DNA of 57,536 nucleotides from Flavobacteriaceae bacterium (GTDB lineage Bacteria > Bacteroidota > Bacteroidia > Flavobacteriales > Flavobacteriaceae), in assembly GCA_009886755.1 (NCBI GenBank), contig QXYU01000031.1, positions 1 to 57,536 of the forward strand. The letters are read 5' to 3'. Shown in pieces: positions 8,630 through 52,368 of the stretch. The position numbers and the translations under genes are program-made. A model generated the notes under the pieces. That model saw only the letters and a program-made list of their open reading frames with translations, did not search any database and was not told the origin of the DNA. The number at the start of each line of letters is the position of its first letter. Within the stretch, counting starts at the first letter, position 1.

Positions 8630-10210
8630 CTAGTCTTCGATGCTTCGATGCGTGAGCGCGCGTTCTATAAAAACATCTTGCTGGGTCAGGATTTTGGCGT
8701 AGCAATTTTCGCCAAACAGCTGTAAGCCTAAGTATGCTTTGATGGCATTCCCAACGATTTGAGTGTCTTTTATGTTCAATGGCAAACCATTGTCTTTGCA
8801 GTAGGTTTTAAAATCTTGAATCCAACGTTGGGTGTTGGCTAAGGGAGTGGCGATGAAATCGGCTTCTGAAGCAAACTCATAAGCGCCTCGGTCTTCATCT
8901 ATCGTACTAAAAACAAAGTGATTCATCAGATTGGACCGCAATAAAAAGAAATCAAATTCTTCGGCACGAGTATTATTGTTTGGCACGTAAATATCTGGAG
9001 TAATCCCTCCACCTCCGTACACAGTTCGTCCTCCAGGTGTTTTATATACCAGCGTATCATTGACTGGAACTTTTGCTACATCGGCCATTTCACCACTGTC
9101 ATAGCGTTGGTTGACTTCATCGTAATAGGCCTCTTTGTCACTGCTGTAAGGGCGTTGAATGGAGCGCCCGGTAGGAGTGTAATAACGAGCTGTCGTCAGT
9201 CGTACGGCATCCCCATCGCCCAATGGAAGCTGTTGTTGAACAAGGCCTTTCCCAAAGCTCCTACGACCTACAATCCACGCCCGATCGTTGTCTTGCAGTG
9301 CCCCTGCCAAAACTTCTGCCGCTGAGGCTGATTGCTCATTGAGCAAAACATAGACCTCCCCTTTTTCATAACCTCCTTTTTCGGTTGCTAGTGTTTGTTG
9401 ACGTATTCCATTGTTGCTTTTTGTAATAACGATGGGGTTTCCATCCTCTAAAAACTCGTCGGCAATTTGCTTGGCTGGAAACATATACCCTCCTGGGTTG
9501 TCTCGCAAATCGAGAATTAGCTTTTTAGTTTGATACAGATCAAACGACCGCAAAGCCGTTATAAACTCTTCGTAAGTCGTTTGAGAAAAGCGATTGATTT
9601 TGATATAGCCTGTGGTCTCATTTACAGGAAAATGGGCCTCTACACTTTTTAATGGAACCGTTCCACGGGGCATGGTTAAGGAAAAAAGAGAATCATTTTG
9701 AGGACGATAGAACTGAAGGTTTACCGAACTATCGGGCGTTCCTTTGAGTTTGGACACAATATCTTCAATTTGGAACTCCTTTTGGTAGAGCGTGTCTGTA
9801 TCGGCTATCAAAATACGATCCCCCGCTAGGATGCCTGCTTTTTTACTAGGACCGCCCCCCAATACCCGGACAATCGTGACCGTATCTTGAACCATATAGA
9901 AACTAACCCCGATCCCTACGAAATTCCCCTGCATGGTTTCTGACAATGCCTGACTTTCTTCTTTGGGAATATAGACCGTATGGGGATCCAAACGATCGAT
10001 AATCTCTTGAATGACCTCAATCGTCAGCGCGTCAATATCAAGTGAATCCACATAGCGTTGATCGACATAGTCCATCAAAAGATTCAGTTTTGCTTGGGCC
10101 GAACTCCTTTCGGCAGAAAACAATCCCAACTCCTCGGAACGACTGCCCCAGAAAAAGCCAATCAATAACGATAGAACAACAATAACCAAAAGATAAAAGG
10201 TGTTTTTCAC
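8630..10210 (-). CDS. S41 family C-terminal processing peptidase (CtpA-like)
   Basis: This is a periplasmic serine protease tethered by an N-terminal hydrophobic helix (FYLLVIVVLSLLIGFFWG). In order there is an N-terminal helical region, a PDZ domain (GIGVSFYM...GGGPSKKAGILAGDRIL), and the S41 core. The core has the catalytic serine in SASAAEVLAGALQ and the lysine in RRSFGKGLVQ about 25 residues later. An ALTHRSIED tail follows. I chose the GTG at 10210, which gives MKNTFYLLV and leaves a 10-nt gap to the upstream gene. A TTG 42 nt further up would extend into the dCMP deaminase gene. The substrates are not predictable. Confidence 0.92.
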   Translation of the reverse strand: MKNTFYLLVIVVLSLLIGFFWGSRSEELGLFSAERSSAQAKLNLLMDYVDQRYVDSLDIDALTIEVIQEIIDRLDPHTVYIPKEESQALSETMQGNFVGIGVSFYMVQDTVTIVRVLGGGPSKKAGILAGDRILIADTDTLYQKEFQIEDIVSKLKGTPDSSVNLQFYRPQNDSLFSLTMPRGTVPLKSVEAHFPVNETTGYIKINRFSQTTYEEFITALRSFDLYQTKKLILDLRDNPGGYMFPAKQIADEFLEDGNPIVITKSNNGIRQQTLATEKGGYEKGEVYVLLNEQSASAAEVLAGALQDNDRAWIVGRRSFGKGLVQQQLPLGDGDAVRLTTARYYTPTGRSIQRPYSSDKEAYYDEVNQRYDSGEMADVAKVPVNDTLVYKTPGGRTVYGGGGITPDIYVPNNNTRAEEFDFFLLRSNLMNHFVFSTIDEDRGAYEFASEADFIATPLANTQRWIQDFKTYCKDNGLPLNIKDTQIVGNAIKAYLGLQLFGENCYAKILTQQDVFIERALTHRSIED

Positions 10211-10220
10211 AAATCGCGTT

Positions 10221-10646
10221 TTAAGAAGATAGGGGCAACTGGGTGACTTCAACCCCAGCGCGTTTTAAGAAATCAACTCCAGAAAGGTCTTTATAGGCTT
10301 TGGAATACACCACTCGTTGGATGCCTGATTGATGAATCAATTTACTACACTCTCTACAGGGAGAAAGAGTGATATAAAGTGTGGCCCCTTGGCAAGATTG
10401 AGTCGAGGCGGCTACTTTGAGAATCGCATTGGCTTCGGCGTGAAGCACATACCATTTGGTTGCGTATTCGTCATCTTCACAAACATTTTCAAAACCAGAG
10501 GGCGTTCCGTTATATCCATCGGAAATGATCATTCGGTCTTTTACAATTAGAGCTCCTACCTGCTTGCGTTTGCAATAGGAAAGCTGTCCCCAAGTGTGGG
10601 CCATCTCCAGATAAGCGCGATCGTATTTTTCCTGTTTACTTCCCAT
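10221..10646 (-). CDS. dCMP deaminase / ComEB-like zinc deaminase
   Basis: The 141-residue cytosolic enzyme belongs to the cytidine/deoxycytidylate deaminase superfamily. The zinc site is complete: His69-Ala-Glu71 in HAEANAILK, and Cys97 and Cys100 in SPCRECSKL. The segment SDGYNGTPSGF is typical of dCMP deaminases, which turn dCMP into dUMP for thymidylate synthesis. The gene sits just upstream of the S41 protease and downstream of the HupE-like gene on the same strand. Substrate choice (dCMP rather than free cytidine) rests on family resemblance. Confidence 0.9.
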   Translation of the reverse strand: MGSKQEKYDRAYLEMAHTWGQLSYCKRKQVGALIVKDRMIISDGYNGTPSGFENVCEDDEYATKWYVLHAEANAILKVAASTQSCQGATLYITLSPCRECSKLIHQSGIQRVVYSKAYKDLSGVDFLKRAGVEVTQLPLSS

Positions 10647-10688
10647 AGCCGACTAAGATACGAGTATTTAAAAAGCAGTGGTAGTTTT

Positions 10689-36586: not shown

Positions 36587-37174
36587 ATGAACACTTTATT
36601 GCCGCCCTTCAGAAATGTTTTTCTGCCACTTTCCCTAATCGTTTTGAGTTTTTATAATCCGCTGAGCGCGCAAAATCTCCAAAACAAAGACAGCCTTCCC
36701 AGCAAATATGAAATTCGACTGGATATCTTTCAACTCATCATATTGCCCGGTTTTGATATTTCCTATGAACATTTTATTGATCCTGTTTCCAGTTGGGGTG
36801 TCACAGGTTTTGTGAATCTTGATAGCAACTTATCAGAAGGGTATCGCTTTGACCGATTTGAATTTTCTCCCTACTATCGTTTGTATTTTAGTCAGAAAGA
36901 ACAAAACAACAGCGGCTTTTTCGTGCAACCGTTTATAAGTTGGCTTAGTACAGCGTATGATTCTTATACAAATTCAACAGACAGTTTTGTCTCAAAAGAT
37001 TTTTTGGGATTTGCTTGAGGGGCTTTGATCGGCTTCAAATGGATCAACCAAAAAAACTACAGTTTTGAAGTTCATGGTGGTGTTGGACGCTACTTCATGC
37101 CAACAAACGAAGAGAGTGCTACCGACAATACTGCCTATCCCCGCATCAACTTTTCCATTGGTAAACGCTTCTAA
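36587..37174 (+). pseudogene. Outer-membrane beta-barrel-like protein interrupted by in-frame TGA
   Basis: The first part (MNTLLPPFRNVFLPLSLIVL and on) has a signal peptide ending near LSAQ. Then comes a small barrel of alternating strands (EIRLDIFQLIILPGFDISYEH in outline). The reading frame stops at TGA 37016-37018 (after KDFLGFA). It continues with no further stop in the same frame as GALIGFKWINQKNYSFEV, GGVGRYFM and a barrel-like end FSIGKRF, to TAA at 37172. The full length would be about 195 residues, and its 3' end meets glyS with a 4-nt overlap as other genes here do. One substitution (for example GGA or CGA to TGA) explains it. Function unknown. Confidence 0.75.
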
Positions 37175-38712
37175 ATTTTTTGCAGCCAGTATTTTGGATT
37201 GAGTTTTTCATCCAAGAAACGATCCAATTGATCCACCGCAATTCGCTCTTGTTGCATACTGTCACGATCTCGTAGGGTTACCGTTTGATCCTCAAGAGAT
37301 TGGTGATCTACTGTAATGCAGTAGGGCGTTCCCAGCGCATCTTGACGACGATAACGACGTCCAACAGCATCCTTTTCATCGTAATTGACAGCATAGTTCC
37401 ACTTAAGATCATTTTGGATTTTTCGTGCCAAATCCGGTAGGCCATCTTTTTTGACCAAAGGCAAGATTGCTACTTGGGTAGGAGCCAATACAGCAGGGAG
37501 CTTCAAAACCGTTCGGCTACTACCGTCTTCTAGAGTTTCTTCTTGTAGTGATTTGGAAAAAACAGCCAAGAACATACGATCCAATCCTATGGATGTTTCC
37601 ACCACATAAGGAACATAGTTCTCATTGCGTTCCGGATCAAAATATTGTAATTTCTTTCCTGAAAATTCCTCATGGCTACCCAAGTCAAAATCGGTGCGGG
37701 AGTGAATTCCCTCTAGTTCTTTAAATCCAAAAGGAAACTTAAACTCAATGTCGGAAGCTGCATCGGCATAATGTGCTAGTTTTTCATGATCGTGAAAACG
37801 GTAGTTCTCTTCGCCCAATCCTAGAGATTTGTGCCAATTGAGTCGTGTATCTTTCCACTTTTCGTACCATTCTTTTTGGGTTCCTGGAGGGATGAAAAAC
37901 TGCATTTCCATTTGTTCAAATTCGCGCATGCGAAAAATAAACTGCCGGGCGACAATTTCATTTCGAAAAGCTTTCCCTATTTGGGCAATTCCAAAAGGCA
38001 CTTTCATTCGCCCTGTTTTTTGAACATTCAAAAAATTGACAAATATGCCTTGGGCCGTTTCTGGACGTAAGTAAAGATCCATAGCAGAATCAGCGGAAGC
38101 TCCGAGCTTGGTGCCAAACATTAAATTAAATTGCTTAACGTCAGTCCAATTACGAGAGCCTGATTCGGGACAAGCGATCTCTAATTCCTCAATCAAATTC
38201 TTAACGTCCGCTAGGTCTTCCTTTTCCAAGGATTGACCCAAACGCTTTAGAATTCCATCGATCTTTTCTTGGTAGCCAACTACTCTCGGGTTGGTGGCTA
38301 AAAATTGCTCTTTGTCAAAGGCTTCTCCAAAGCGTCTTGCGGCTTTGGTTACTTCTTTTTCTATTTTGACTTCCAATTTTCCACAGTAATCCTCGACCAA
38401 TACATCGGCTCGGTAGCGTTTTTTGGAGTCTTTATTATCAATCAAAGGATCGTTAAAGGCATCTACGTGACCCGAGGCCTTCCAAGTAGTGGGATGCATA
38501 AAAATTGCAGCATCGATCCCTACAATATTATCGTGCAGCTGCACCATCGCACGCCACCAATAGTTTTTGATGTTGTTTTTCAGTGCAGCCCCATTTTGAC
38601 CGTAATCATAAACGGCACTGAGTCCGTCATAAATTTCGCTGGAGGGGAATACAAAACCATACTCTTTAGCATGGGAAATTACTTTTTTAAAGAGGTCATT
38701 TTGTGTTGCCAT
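37171..38712 (-). CDS. glyS: Glycyl-tRNA synthetase, homodimeric class II
   Basis: The 513-residue synthetase charges tRNA-Gly. N-terminal KKVISHAKEYGFVFPSSEIYDGLSAVYDYGQNG in outline is the archaeal/eukaryote-like homodimer form (alpha2). Class II motif 2 is RNEIVARQFIFRMREFEQMEMQFF in outline, and motif 3 lies in the VVETSIGLDRMFLAVF segment. The C-terminal anticodon-binding domain has PTQVAILPLVKKDG. A -7 promoter box ends only 4 nt before the start codon on this strand. The gene's end overlaps the broken barrel gene. Confidence 0.97.
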   Translation of the reverse strand: MATQNDLFKKVISHAKEYGFVFPSSEIYDGLSAVYDYGQNGAALKNNIKNYWWRAMVQLHDNIVGIDAAIFMHPTTWKASGHVDAFNDPLIDNKDSKKRYRADVLVEDYCGKLEVKIEKEVTKAARRFGEAFDKEQFLATNPRVVGYQEKIDGILKRLGQSLEKEDLADVKNLIEELEIACPESGSRNWTDVKQFNLMFGTKLGASADSAMDLYLRPETAQGIFVNFLNVQKTGRMKVPFGIAQIGKAFRNEIVARQFIFRMREFEQMEMQFFIPPGTQKEWYEKWKDTRLNWHKSLGLGEENYRFHDHEKLAHYADAASDIEFKFPFGFKELEGIHSRTDFDLGSHEEFSGKKLQYFDPERNENYVPYVVETSIGLDRMFLAVFSKSLQEETLEDGSSRTVLKLPAVLAPTQVAILPLVKKDGLPDLARKIQNDLKWNYAVNYDEKDAVGRRYRRQDALGTPYCITVDHQSLEDQTVTLRDRDSMQQERIAVDQLDRFLDEKLNPKYWLQKI

Positions 38713-38724: not shown

Positions 38725-38789
38725 ACGGCTTTTTCCCTATCTTAAACATCCCTCTACTTTTTTTCCATAAAAAAATACTTTCATCGCTG

Positions 38790-39465
38790 ATGGAAAACCT
38801 GCTTTTCTTTCTTTTTTCCTCGCTTTTGCCCGGGCTGTTCCATAGAAATGATGCCCTATGAAAGACCTTGTTGCTTGCATTGTCAAGCGAGTCTCCCTTA
38901 TACCCATTTTGAAACCTTTCACAACAATCCGGTCTACGAAAAACTGCTCCAATGGATTCCCATTGAGCAGGGAACGGCGTTGTTTTATTTTGAAGAGAAT
39001 AGCCCCCTTCAAAACATCATTCATCAACTGAAATTTATGGGACAAGAACAACTCGGCCACTGGCTGGGTGTTCTTGCTGCGGAGCGACTTCGAAATACGC
39101 CCTGCCAAAAATGCACCGCGATTGTCCCACTACCTCTCCACCCTCATAGACAACGGCAACGCGGCTACAATCAGGTAGATTTGCTTTGTCAAACATTCGC
39201 TTCACAACTTAATATTCCCTATACGCCCAACCTCATCTAACGTGTAAAAAACACCCAGTAATTGTCTCTAAACAAAACATCGGATCGGTTTGAAGAAATG
39301 CACCAAGCTTTTCAACGGACCCAAGTAGACCCTTTTGAAAAACCGCATTGGTTGCTCGTAGATGATATCATTACTACGGGAGCTAACTTACAAAACTGTG
39401 GAAAAAGTATGCTCGTGGCTCCAAAATCGAAACTGAGTATCCTGGTCATCGGGTGTAGGAAGTGA
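38790..39465 (+). pseudogene. comF: comF (phosphoribosyltransferase-like) with frameshift and two in-frame TAA
   Basis: ComF is a PRPP-fold protein used in natural transformation. ATG 38790 gives MENLLFFLF. Dropping one T of the T6 run at 38812-38817 continues this into the frame reading FPRFCPGC, then RPCCLHC; these two CxxC pairs are the ComF zinc ribbon. The frame goes on through LPLHPHRQRQRGYNQ, is stopped by TAA at 39238-39240 and again at 39259-39261, then continues as DRFEEMHQAF and the PRPP motif LLVDDIITTGANL. All three lesions lie between recognisable ComF segments, so the gene is broken unless the assembly is wrong. Confidence 0.85.
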
Positions 39466-39492: not shown

Positions 39493-41169
39493 ATGAAATC
39501 GACCTTTTTTCGTTTTTTACTAGGCCTTAGCCTTGCCCTGACACTTTCATACTGTGCCAAACGCGGTGCTCCTACTGGTGGTCCTCTTGACAGTATTCCT
39601 CCTGTGTTACAGAATGCTTCTCCCAAACAAAGAACCACTTTTTTTGATAAAGAAAAGTTCGTTCTGACCTTTGATGAGTACATAAAACTGAGAGATCTCC
39701 AAAAACAGTTGATCATTTCACCCCCTATGGAACCTAGTAATTACAAGGTGTATCCGCAAACAGGGGTTTCCAAAAAGCTGAGTGTGGTTTTCAAAGACAG
39801 TCTTCGGAATGACACGACCTATACCTTCAATTTTGGCGAAAGTATTCAGGACAATAATGAAAGTAATATCCTCTCCTATTTTAGCTATACCCTTTCCACA
39901 GGAGCTACCATTGATTCCCTTCAATTTAGAGGAACTGTTACGGATGCTTTTGAAGCAGAAACACCCCCTTATGTCTCCCTACAGCTTTATCCTATTGACA
40001 GTACGTACAATGACTCTACGGTTTACACTCAAAAACCCTTATACGTTGCCAGCACGCTAGACAGCACTATTTATCAGTTTCAAAACCTCAAGGCAGGAAA
40101 ATATGAACTGATTGCTTTACTGGACAATGCTTCTAACTATTTTTTTGATCAAAACATTGATAAAATTGGGTTTATAGAAAAACAAATCGAGTTGCCCGGC
40201 GATAGTGTTGTTGATCTTAGAATTTTCAATGAGATTCCCAATTTTTCTTGGAGCAAGCCCGAATTCATTAACGAGCACCACATTGTTTTGCCTTACTTTG
40301 GCCGCTATACGGGACAATCCATGGAGATGATTTCTGAGGTTCCCGGTGATTTTGAAAGTTTAATCACCCGAGACCGAGAAAAAGACAGCTTGAATTTTTG
40401 GTTTAAAAACCCCCCTAAGGATTCGCTGCAGTTTCGCTATCCCTACAAAGATAGCCTACGAACACATACGGTAAAATATTCAACCCCCACTCCCGATTCT
40501 TTAGTCGTCAAAAAGACCAGTCCTAAAGTTTTACATCTTATGGATTCTGTGCTTCTAATAGCCAACCTACCCATTATCAAAATGGACAATAGTAAGATTC
40601 AGGTGCGAAATAAAGATTCTGTTTTTGTTCCTTTTCAAGTCAATCTTCATCCAAACAAAGATGAAATTCGACTCTCTATTCCCAATCTGGGACCTAATGA
40701 CAAATACTTTTTTGACATTTATCCCAACGCATTCACTGACTTTTTTGGTGCCACCAACGACACCATCGCTTTTGATGTGGTAACCAGTAAATACGAGAGT
40801 TATGGGAAACTGATCGTACAATTCAAAAACTTGGAGGACAGTCCCCTTGTGGTGGATCTGCTCAACAGTCGTTATAAACTCAAACGAAGAATTACCAAAG
40901 CCTTACCTAACAATCAGCATACTTTTGAATACCTCCCTCCTGGAAAATATATCATTCGCGTGATCAAAGATGTTAATGATAATAATAAATGGGACACCGG
41001 AAACTACTTGAAAAAAATTCAGCCTGAGGAAGTCATCTACCTCCCTGAAGAGATTGATGTTCGAGCGAACTGGGATGTCAATCAAGTTTTTGATCCCATA
41101 CAAATTCGTCTCGATCGGCTAAAAAGTTCAACCGCTTCCGAAGTGACCGAAGTGGATCAAGTTCCATAG
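39493..41169 (+). CDS. Lipoprotein with Ig-like (Big_5) domain
   Basis: The 558-residue protein starts at ATG 39493 with a lipoprotein signal (FFRFLLGLSLALTLSYC, lipid Cys21, with Tyr at -1, tolerable in this phylum), then AKRGAPTGGPLDSIPPVL. That N-terminus is typical of a widespread Bacteroidota lipoprotein. A Big_5 domain follows (residues about 45-130: FDEYIKLRD...YTFNFG.SI.DNNE). The rest is a set of beta-rich repeats and a C-terminal NDNNKWDTG segment resembling carboxypeptidase-regulatory-like domains. It is probably exposed in the periplasm or outer membrane. The 3' end overlaps the convergent omega-amidase by 92 nt. Confidence 0.85.
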   Translation: MKSTFFRFLLGLSLALTLSYCAKRGAPTGGPLDSIPPVLQNASPKQRTTFFDKEKFVLTFDEYIKLRDLQKQLIISPPMEPSNYKVYPQTGVSKKLSVVFKDSLRNDTTYTFNFGESIQDNNESNILSYFSYTLSTGATIDSLQFRGTVTDAFEAETPPYVSLQLYPIDSTYNDSTVYTQKPLYVASTLDSTIYQFQNLKAGKYELIALLDNASNYFFDQNIDKIGFIEKQIELPGDSVVDLRIFNEIPNFSWSKPEFINEHHIVLPYFGRYTGQSMEMISEVPGDFESLITRDREKDSLNFWFKNPPKDSLQFRYPYKDSLRTHTVKYSTPTPDSLVVKKTSPKVLHLMDSVLLIANLPIIKMDNSKIQVRNKDSVFVPFQVNLHPNKDEIRLSIPNLGPNDKYFFDIYPNAFTDFFGATNDTIAFDVVTSKYESYGKLIVQFKNLEDSPLVVDLLNSRYKLKRRITKALPNNQHTFEYLPPGKYIIRVIKDVNDNNKWDTGNYLKKIQPEEVIYLPEEIDVRANWDVNQVFDPIQIRLDRLKSSTASEVTEVDQVP

Positions 41170-51437: not shown

Positions 51438-52368
51438 GCTTTTGCTGGAAAGAGTATTTCACTTTTTAATTCCAATTCTGAAGTGTCCTTAGGGTTGTTC
51501 CAATACACTTCCATTGGGGGTGTTTTTTTAAGAGGCTTAAACTGTTTGCTTCGCAAATGCATAGCGGCTGCCGACCAAGCATTGGCAATATGCCGATAAG
51601 GACCTTGGTGCAATACGGAATAGACCTGCATGGCAGGGAGCGTTCCGGTAACCATATCCGACTCTAAATCTGTAGGTATTTCCGTCAAGGGAAGGGCTGC
51701 CGTATATATTACCTTTTTACGAACTACATCAAACTTGTGGTAAATGGAAAAAGGAGCACCTGCTTGAAGGGCTTTCCACTTTTGATGAAAAAGGGGCGTC
51801 AAGCGACCAAAGTCTTCTCCCATACATTGTTCCATCTCAGCAGTACTGATGCTTCTTTGAAGCCCTACATATTGCATTGCTGGGTGCTTTTTCAATCCCA
51901 AAAACTTGATTGAAGAATTGGTTTTTCCCGTTTCTGCAAAATCTTTTAGAAGCCGTAGGCCACGTCCATAGTCTTGACTGATATAGGCCTCCATGGATTT
52001 TTTCATCCAAAACAAAAAGAAAGGTATGCCGCTATCTATGGTCCATCGAACTTGAGTAGATGCTCCTTCTTCTTTTAGATAAAAAGCTACTTTGGCTTGG
52101 GATTTCCAAGGTTTTAAGAATGTCAAATCCATCAGTGAAAAATCATGCTTTGCTGACTTTCGGGTGATTTGCATTTGTCCCGAACCGATGATTTGGCCCT
52201 CCCACTGGTAAAATCTCCAGAGTCTGCAATAGTGACTTTTGCTTCGGGTTCTGCCAGCAACCAAGGCGACCAGGTCTGCCAATGGTGGTAATCACTTAAA
52301 ATGGAATAGATTTTTAAAGGTTTTTCTTGGATGACGATGGACTCGTCGATACGCATTTTGGGCATCAC
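51434..52368 (-). pseudogene. SRPBCC + GyrI-like effector-binding protein with 1-nt frameshift
   Basis: The N-terminal frame (from ATG 52368) gives an SRPBCC-type start: RIDESIVIQEKPLKIYSILSDYHHWQTWSPWL in outline, on to EAKVTIADSGDF. At the AAAA run 52210-52213 the frame must gain one base; the other frame then reads YQWEGQIIGSGQMQITR and continues without stop. It covers a hydrophobic patch, a GyrI-like domain and an end LKSEILFPAKA. With one base restored the product is 311 residues. Homologous proteins are SRPBCC-AraC effector-binding fusions. The lesion could be a homopolymer error. Confidence 0.8.

Follow-up and report, generated by a model that had tools for sequence, protein, structure and literature searches.

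Does a flavobacterium whose comF gene is interrupted still make a working ComF protein, and has it lost a single gene or a whole route of DNA uptake? The question arises from a contig of a Flavobacteriaceae bacterium (GenBank assembly GCA_009886755.1, contig QXYU01000031.1), placed in this family on the basis of its glyS relatives. The window, i.e. the whole stretch of 57,536 nucleotides that was analysed, is the entire contig C25 of a 1.78 Mb genome (G000) in 51 contigs, with an estimated completeness of 97.2% and contamination of 0.16%. We are highly confident that positions 38767–39465 of the window hold a unitary comF pseudogene, and that the lineage has ceased to produce ComF and has dismantled the ComEC–ComF–DprA–ComM route, which would normally bring in and recombine single-stranded DNA. 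The parts of the locus are as follows.

38767–39465, + strand: comF pseudogene (ComF-family zinc-ribbon phosphoribosyltransferase), the former full reading frame, from TIGR00201 matches and alignment to the congeners G001, G002 and G003.
38767–38769, + strand: lost start codon, reading ATA, aligned with the start codon of the open frame of the sister species G001.
38788–38790, + strand: in-frame stop TGA, a sense codon in the sister.
38812–38817, + strand: T6 run, no lesion; of equal length in the sister, with the frame continuous.
38827–38883, + strand: zinc-ribbon cysteines, kept (codons 38827, 38836, 38872 and 38881), in columns identical in 26 of 26 reference rows.
39238–39240, + strand: in-frame stop TAA, a sense codon in the sister.
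39259–39261, + strand: in-frame stop TAA, a sense codon in the sister.
39361–39387, + strand: PRPP-binding loop, recognisable, with its last threonine (codon 39385) changed; kept by 26 of 26 reference rows and by the sister.
37171–38712, − strand: glyS, glycine–tRNA ligase, the intact divergent neighbour, whose protein is 98% identical to that of the sister.
39493–41169, + strand: Big_5/DUF2141 protein, the intact downstream neighbour, from the first in-frame ATG (the listed open reading frame starts at TTG 39484).

The assignment to the ComF family on the + strand, made in the initial annotation, is borne out by the TIGR00201 profile, against which the two open pieces score 53.6 and 26.6 bits and the gene with its stops read through scores 95.2 bits over profile positions 1–176 of 190, i.e. 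over most of its length; the score lies below the curated cut-off of 233.55, as it does in all 60 genomes searched. Both TAA codons that had been reported were confirmed. The 5′ end had been misread as 38790, and alignment to the sister places the true start at 38767; the loss of the start codon and the TGA had been overlooked. The third lesion originally claimed, a frameshift in the T6 run, is rejected, as the run is as long as that of the sister and there is no indel inside the gene, which two contig pieces of the sister jointly cover; the apparent shift came about because an out-of-frame ATG at 38793 was taken as the start. What holds is the broader claim of decay rather than sequencing error, with the loss of transformation that it would imply, now supported by four separate disabling changes, all of them substitutions.

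How much of a ComF protein is still encoded? Like members of the ComF/ComFC family, the window gene has the profile match, four of four conserved zinc-ribbon cysteines, the RGYNQ motif and, within the PRPP loop, the DDxxTTGA stretch, but it differs from them in its lost start, its three nonsense codons and the change of an invariant loop residue. In other words, the motifs described earlier as recognisable are so with the exception of the last threonine of the loop, and no frame that opens with a start codon runs uninterrupted through the gene. This likeness is drawn through the family profile. Among the 23 columns in which 90% or more of the 26 reference rows agree (the sister was kept out of this set, as were G056 and G043, whose comF rows contain a stop), the window gene departs at two: one departure is identical in the sister, and the other is the PRPP-loop threonine. 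The sister itself departs at one further conserved column. Could a shortened product still function, either the 130-residue protein that begins at an internal ATG at 38848 and runs to 39240 or the 67-residue 3′ piece? The former frame is open and keeps half of the zinc ribbon as well as RGYNQ; the PRPP loop, however, sits in a different open piece and has lost an invariant residue, and neither comEC nor dprA, its partner genes, is intact (see below), so that we consider a functional fragment extremely improbable.

Searching the window genome with TIGR00201 revealed no second comF copy. The only other match, which scores 26 bits against the C-terminal portion of the profile, falls in an open frame of 337 residues that we take to show the pattern of a PRPP synthetase, as we do for similar weak matches in most relatives. 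At the same locus comF is open in all three congeners, and G002 has the same order glyS–comF–Big_5, as have G001 and G003 within the limits of their contigs. With several disabling lesions, open orthologues in its relatives and no second copy, the window comF is a unitary pseudogene. More widely, 80 loci were collected by way of glyS, some of them truncated, and 63 of these have comF nearby; of 16 comF loci from this set, 15 have a single match with one stop, which we assumed to reflect a match extending past the start codon and did not count. Two oddities were also seen: the comF that neighbours glyS in Winogradskyella psychrotolerans RS-3 (L051) gives matches split between two reading frames, suggestive of a frameshift or of an error in the sequence, and in a single-contig genome (G144:C1:491139-492678) glyS matches in two overlapping frames, probably through a sequence error or an odd split.

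If ComF production has ended, what is the state of its partners? We chose comEC and dprA because the initial annotation had named them, before their state was known, and both turned out to carry stops of their own, on contigs other than that of comF.

G000:C28, from 39761: comEC, broken by two internal stops, TAA at C28:40841 and TGA at C28:41408.
G000:C31: dprA, broken by TAG at C31:22709 and by a 21-nucleotide deletion near the 3′ end.

The comEC gene also has a run of 10 N near its end. A search for comM (TIGR00368) in the window genome, which is an estimated 97% complete, gave only a match of 32.9 bits to profile positions 11–173 in a frame of 821 residues, presumably Lon-like, and the neighbourhood of the G002 comM has no match in the sampled stretches of G000. 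The window genome thus does not hold comEC, dprA and comM intact together.

The weight of these lesions depends on how rare broken genes are in this assembly. As a control, congener open reading frames of at least 100 residues (G001–G003) were matched to the window and to two other stretches of G000, giving 82 gene loci (48, 21 and 13 per stretch; comEC counts as two loci, its G002 copy being split), and a locus was flagged when all of its references showed either a stop at 12% to 95% of the length or a match broken into more than one piece. The flagged loci were comF, comEC, dprA, one frameshifted gene and one doubtful frame, probably no gene at all, at C31:31839-32267; of about 78 other matched genes, 76 or 77 were unflagged. 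The contrast between three of three competence genes broken and one or two of about 78 others has a Fisher p of 5e-5 to 1e-4. A looser pass also marked loci whose stops lie only in terminal extensions, one locus cut at a contig end and one case of repeated ABC domains, which were set aside after partial inspection. The frameshifted gene, at window positions 51440–52365 on the − strand, encodes some 310 residues, SRPBCC/GyrI-like by eye, with the shift in the N-terminal third; it is open in G002 and G003.

These numbers bear on the possibility that the comF lesions are assembly or consensus errors and that the gene is intact in the organism. The lesions are known from the consensus of a 51-contig assembly, and in the sister assembly comF is split by a contig break (ends of G001:C191 and G001:C189; L121 and L122) with overlapping ends that differ at several sites, which suggests strain variation at the locus. 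Errors would, however, have to account for four separate substitutions without an indel, for stops in comEC and dprA on other contigs and for the near absence of other broken genes among those sampled; moreover, the window has no N. We therefore judge error unlikely as the cause, and an intact comF in the organism very improbable.

When did comF die? Compared with the sister, comF has a dN/dS of 0.139, the highest of 10 genes (0.016–0.110 in the others) and still far below 1, at a dS of 0.59 (0.43–0.70 in the other nine). From codon 27 onward and polarised with G003, the window branch carries 14 nonsynonymous, 2 nonsense and 18 synonymous changes and the sister branch 10 nonsynonymous and 23 synonymous; with G002 as the outgroup, the counts are 14, 1 and 13 on the window branch and 8 and 19 on the sister branch. 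With the stops counted as nonsynonymous, the G003-polarised branches do not differ (16:18 versus 10:23, p 0.21), and the comF window branch does differ from the window branch of Big_5 (p 0.007). For comparison, window and sister branches stand at 16:61 and 18:57 in Big_5, 4:14 and 13:18 in a HAD gene and 7:25 and 17:17 in a nitrilase gene; in dprA they stand at 29:50 (plus one stop) and 37:36 (plus one stop), the latter inflated by a one-base gap in the sister. Since the comF window branch does not differ from the sister branch, and since the sister-branch ratios of the open nitrilase and HAD genes are as high as that of comF, relaxed selection on comF can hardly be seen in the counts. It is thus probable that selection maintained the gene through most of the period since the two species diverged, and that its decay is recent relative to that divergence.

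The congeners offer a view of how far the decay extends. In G001, G002 and G003 dprA is open, with the one-base gap in G001, near the 3′ end, lengthening its frame, and comM is full-length and open in G002 and G003, as it is in G023; no comM match was found in G001 (66% complete), nor was comEC found in G001 or G003 (66% and 72% complete). Like the window genome, G002 has a broken comEC, with a frameshift and a TAG (G002:C20, L144, about 8682–10681), although the lesions are different ones and a shared visible comEC lesion is therefore rejected; unlike the window genome, it still has comF, dprA and comM open. From these sequences, it appears that comEC decay took place independently in two species of this genus. 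By glyS protein identity the nearest named record is a Candidatus Arcticimaribacter contig (L067), at 90%; at the DNA level its glyS is 75% identical to that of the window, and that of G002 is 76% identical. The flanking genes of L067 on the comF side match the window only in short pieces. The nearest named records, together with a paper on the NS5 group (PMC9122927) that names the cultured isolate Arcticimaribacter forsetii AHE01FL, point to a probably marine habitat for the window organism.

Is this genome an isolated case? Our survey covered 129 Flavobacteriaceae genomes at least 90% complete, one per genus and the window genome included. No comF match at 1e-8 was obtained in five of them (G007, G033, G076, G087 and G152); G113 has six stops in its comF and G069 has one, the window genome has two within the matched part, and the match in G063 is partial, near a contig end. 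For comEC, searched with a profile that covers the N-terminal part only, there was no match in G007, G033, G076, G087, G113 and G152, and 123 genomes had a match; for dprA there was none in G007, G076, G087, G113 and G152, with 124 genomes matched and only a partial match, of 88.7 bits, in G033. The window genome alone has a stop inside its comEC match, and likewise inside its dprA match. Among the 17 chosen genomes in which comM was searched, no match above 40 bits was seen in G007, G033, G076, G087, G113 and G152, and G069 gave a full match with one stop. In G113, which belongs to another genus and has no dprA, comEC or comM match, a decayed comF remnant lies between glyS and a Big_5 gene (G113:C3:210363-210958, L160). 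Open comEC frames of 459–544 residues, against a usual 650–700, occur in G086, G107, G149, G019, G135 and G072, four of these six genomes being 1.6–2.0 Mb in size; such frames may be further truncated genes or contig cuts, and more comEC decay may be under way. As a control gene xseA was rejected, with matches in only seven of the 129 genomes.

The genomes that lack comEC are the very ones in which comF is absent or has six stops (six of six among the 128 others), a co-loss with a Fisher p of 2e-10, or 1e-9 if G069 is treated as comF-broken, uncorrected for kinship. A broken or absent comF is also commoner among small genomes: 5 of the 14 of up to 2.3 Mb show it, against 2 of the 114 above that size (p 1e-4, again with kinship uncorrected). 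In a glyS tree of 32 genomes, G076, G087 and G113 join weakly (80/83), beside the genus of the window (83/90), and G007 and G152/G033 are placed elsewhere; given these placements, the competence losses in the family were probably several separate events. ComF shares the fold of type I phosphoribosyltransferases, and its biochemical function is unsettled. Might comF then have decayed for reasons unrelated to competence, e.g. as a dispensable metabolic phosphoribosyltransferase, the damage to comEC and dprA being coincidental? Alongside the fold, this reading could call on G069 and on two genomes outside the family (G056 and G043), which have a stop in comF and an open comEC. The joint loss of comF and comEC in six of six cases argues against it, and we hold it to be very improbable. 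The same three genomes led us to reject a fixed order of loss in which comEC goes first.

Outside the family, within the same order, the competence genes are found in various states. For example, the comF of G058 lies in two pieces that carry five stops, its dprA is truncated and has a stop, its comM is a remnant and comEC has no match; in G056 both comF and dprA contain stops, comM is split and comEC is open; and G043 combines its stop in comF and its open comEC with a dprA fragment and no comM. Two genomes that are 88% and 86% complete, G041 and G054, are without comF, dprA and comM, and G054 has a 20-bit comEC remnant with four stops. Three others (G006, G039 and G059; 76–83% complete) have no comF match and keep dprA and comEC, and the 0.3 Mb genome G051 has no match for comF, dprA or comEC.

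What would such losses do to a cell? In a transposon study of Riemerella anatipestifer (PMC8459023), ComF (RA0C_RS05105), ComEC, DprA and RecA are essential for transformation, as are four further proteins of unknown role (DUF5689, carboxypeptidase-regulatory, HHH and DUF1343), and a comF insertion mutant transforms below detection; citing others, the same text places ComFA–ComFC between uptake and DprA-dependent recombination. Because ComF, ComEC and DprA are essential there, the window organism should be non-transformable. We infer that it makes no functional ComF and that the cell is not naturally transformable; its lineage has very probably abandoned natural transformation. Possession of the genes does not alone mean competence: according to PMC7965970, Riemerella columbina is competent and Flavobacterium johnsoniae is not under the same conditions, despite having DprA, ComEC and ComM homologues. 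A similar loss is described in PMC12955456 for Piscirickettsia salmonis, in which an essential DNA-uptake gene is likewise broken across the lineage, comEC being interrupted by transposable elements in the available genomes. In P. salmonis, however, comEA, comFB, comM and dprA are intact, whereas in the window genome point changes have broken comF, comEC and dprA, the last of which also has a deletion, and no comM was found. Loss of competence genes is thus already known, and further literature treats competence genes and pseudogenes elsewhere; among titles and abstract openings of the open-licence literature, we found no paper on competence loss in Flavobacteriaceae, Bacteroidetes or streamlined genomes. 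The window is a well-supported new case of competence decay, and the package-like co-loss in the family may be the new part.

As the cause we propose that selection on competence relaxed in this flavobacterium, which has a small genome and is probably marine: after the loss of one essential step of competence, the remaining genes would be free to drift. Whether Flavobacteriaceae discard competence as a package (comF, comEC, dprA and comM), repeatedly and chiefly where genomes are small, is to our minds about evenly balanced. If they do, then ComF, DprA and ComM would have no role beyond transformation important enough to preserve them here, these natural knock-outs would support the place of ComF in the transformation pathway of the family, and the window genome together with its congeners would represent a lineage partway through the process. 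Transformation in Bacteroidota is poorly known, and broken comF, comEC and dprA set against the open comF and dprA of the congeners, together with the family-wide joint absence of comF and comEC, provide an evolutionary test of which genes the transformation pathway comprises. The case also bears on whether small-genome, probably marine flavobacteria abandon DNA uptake.
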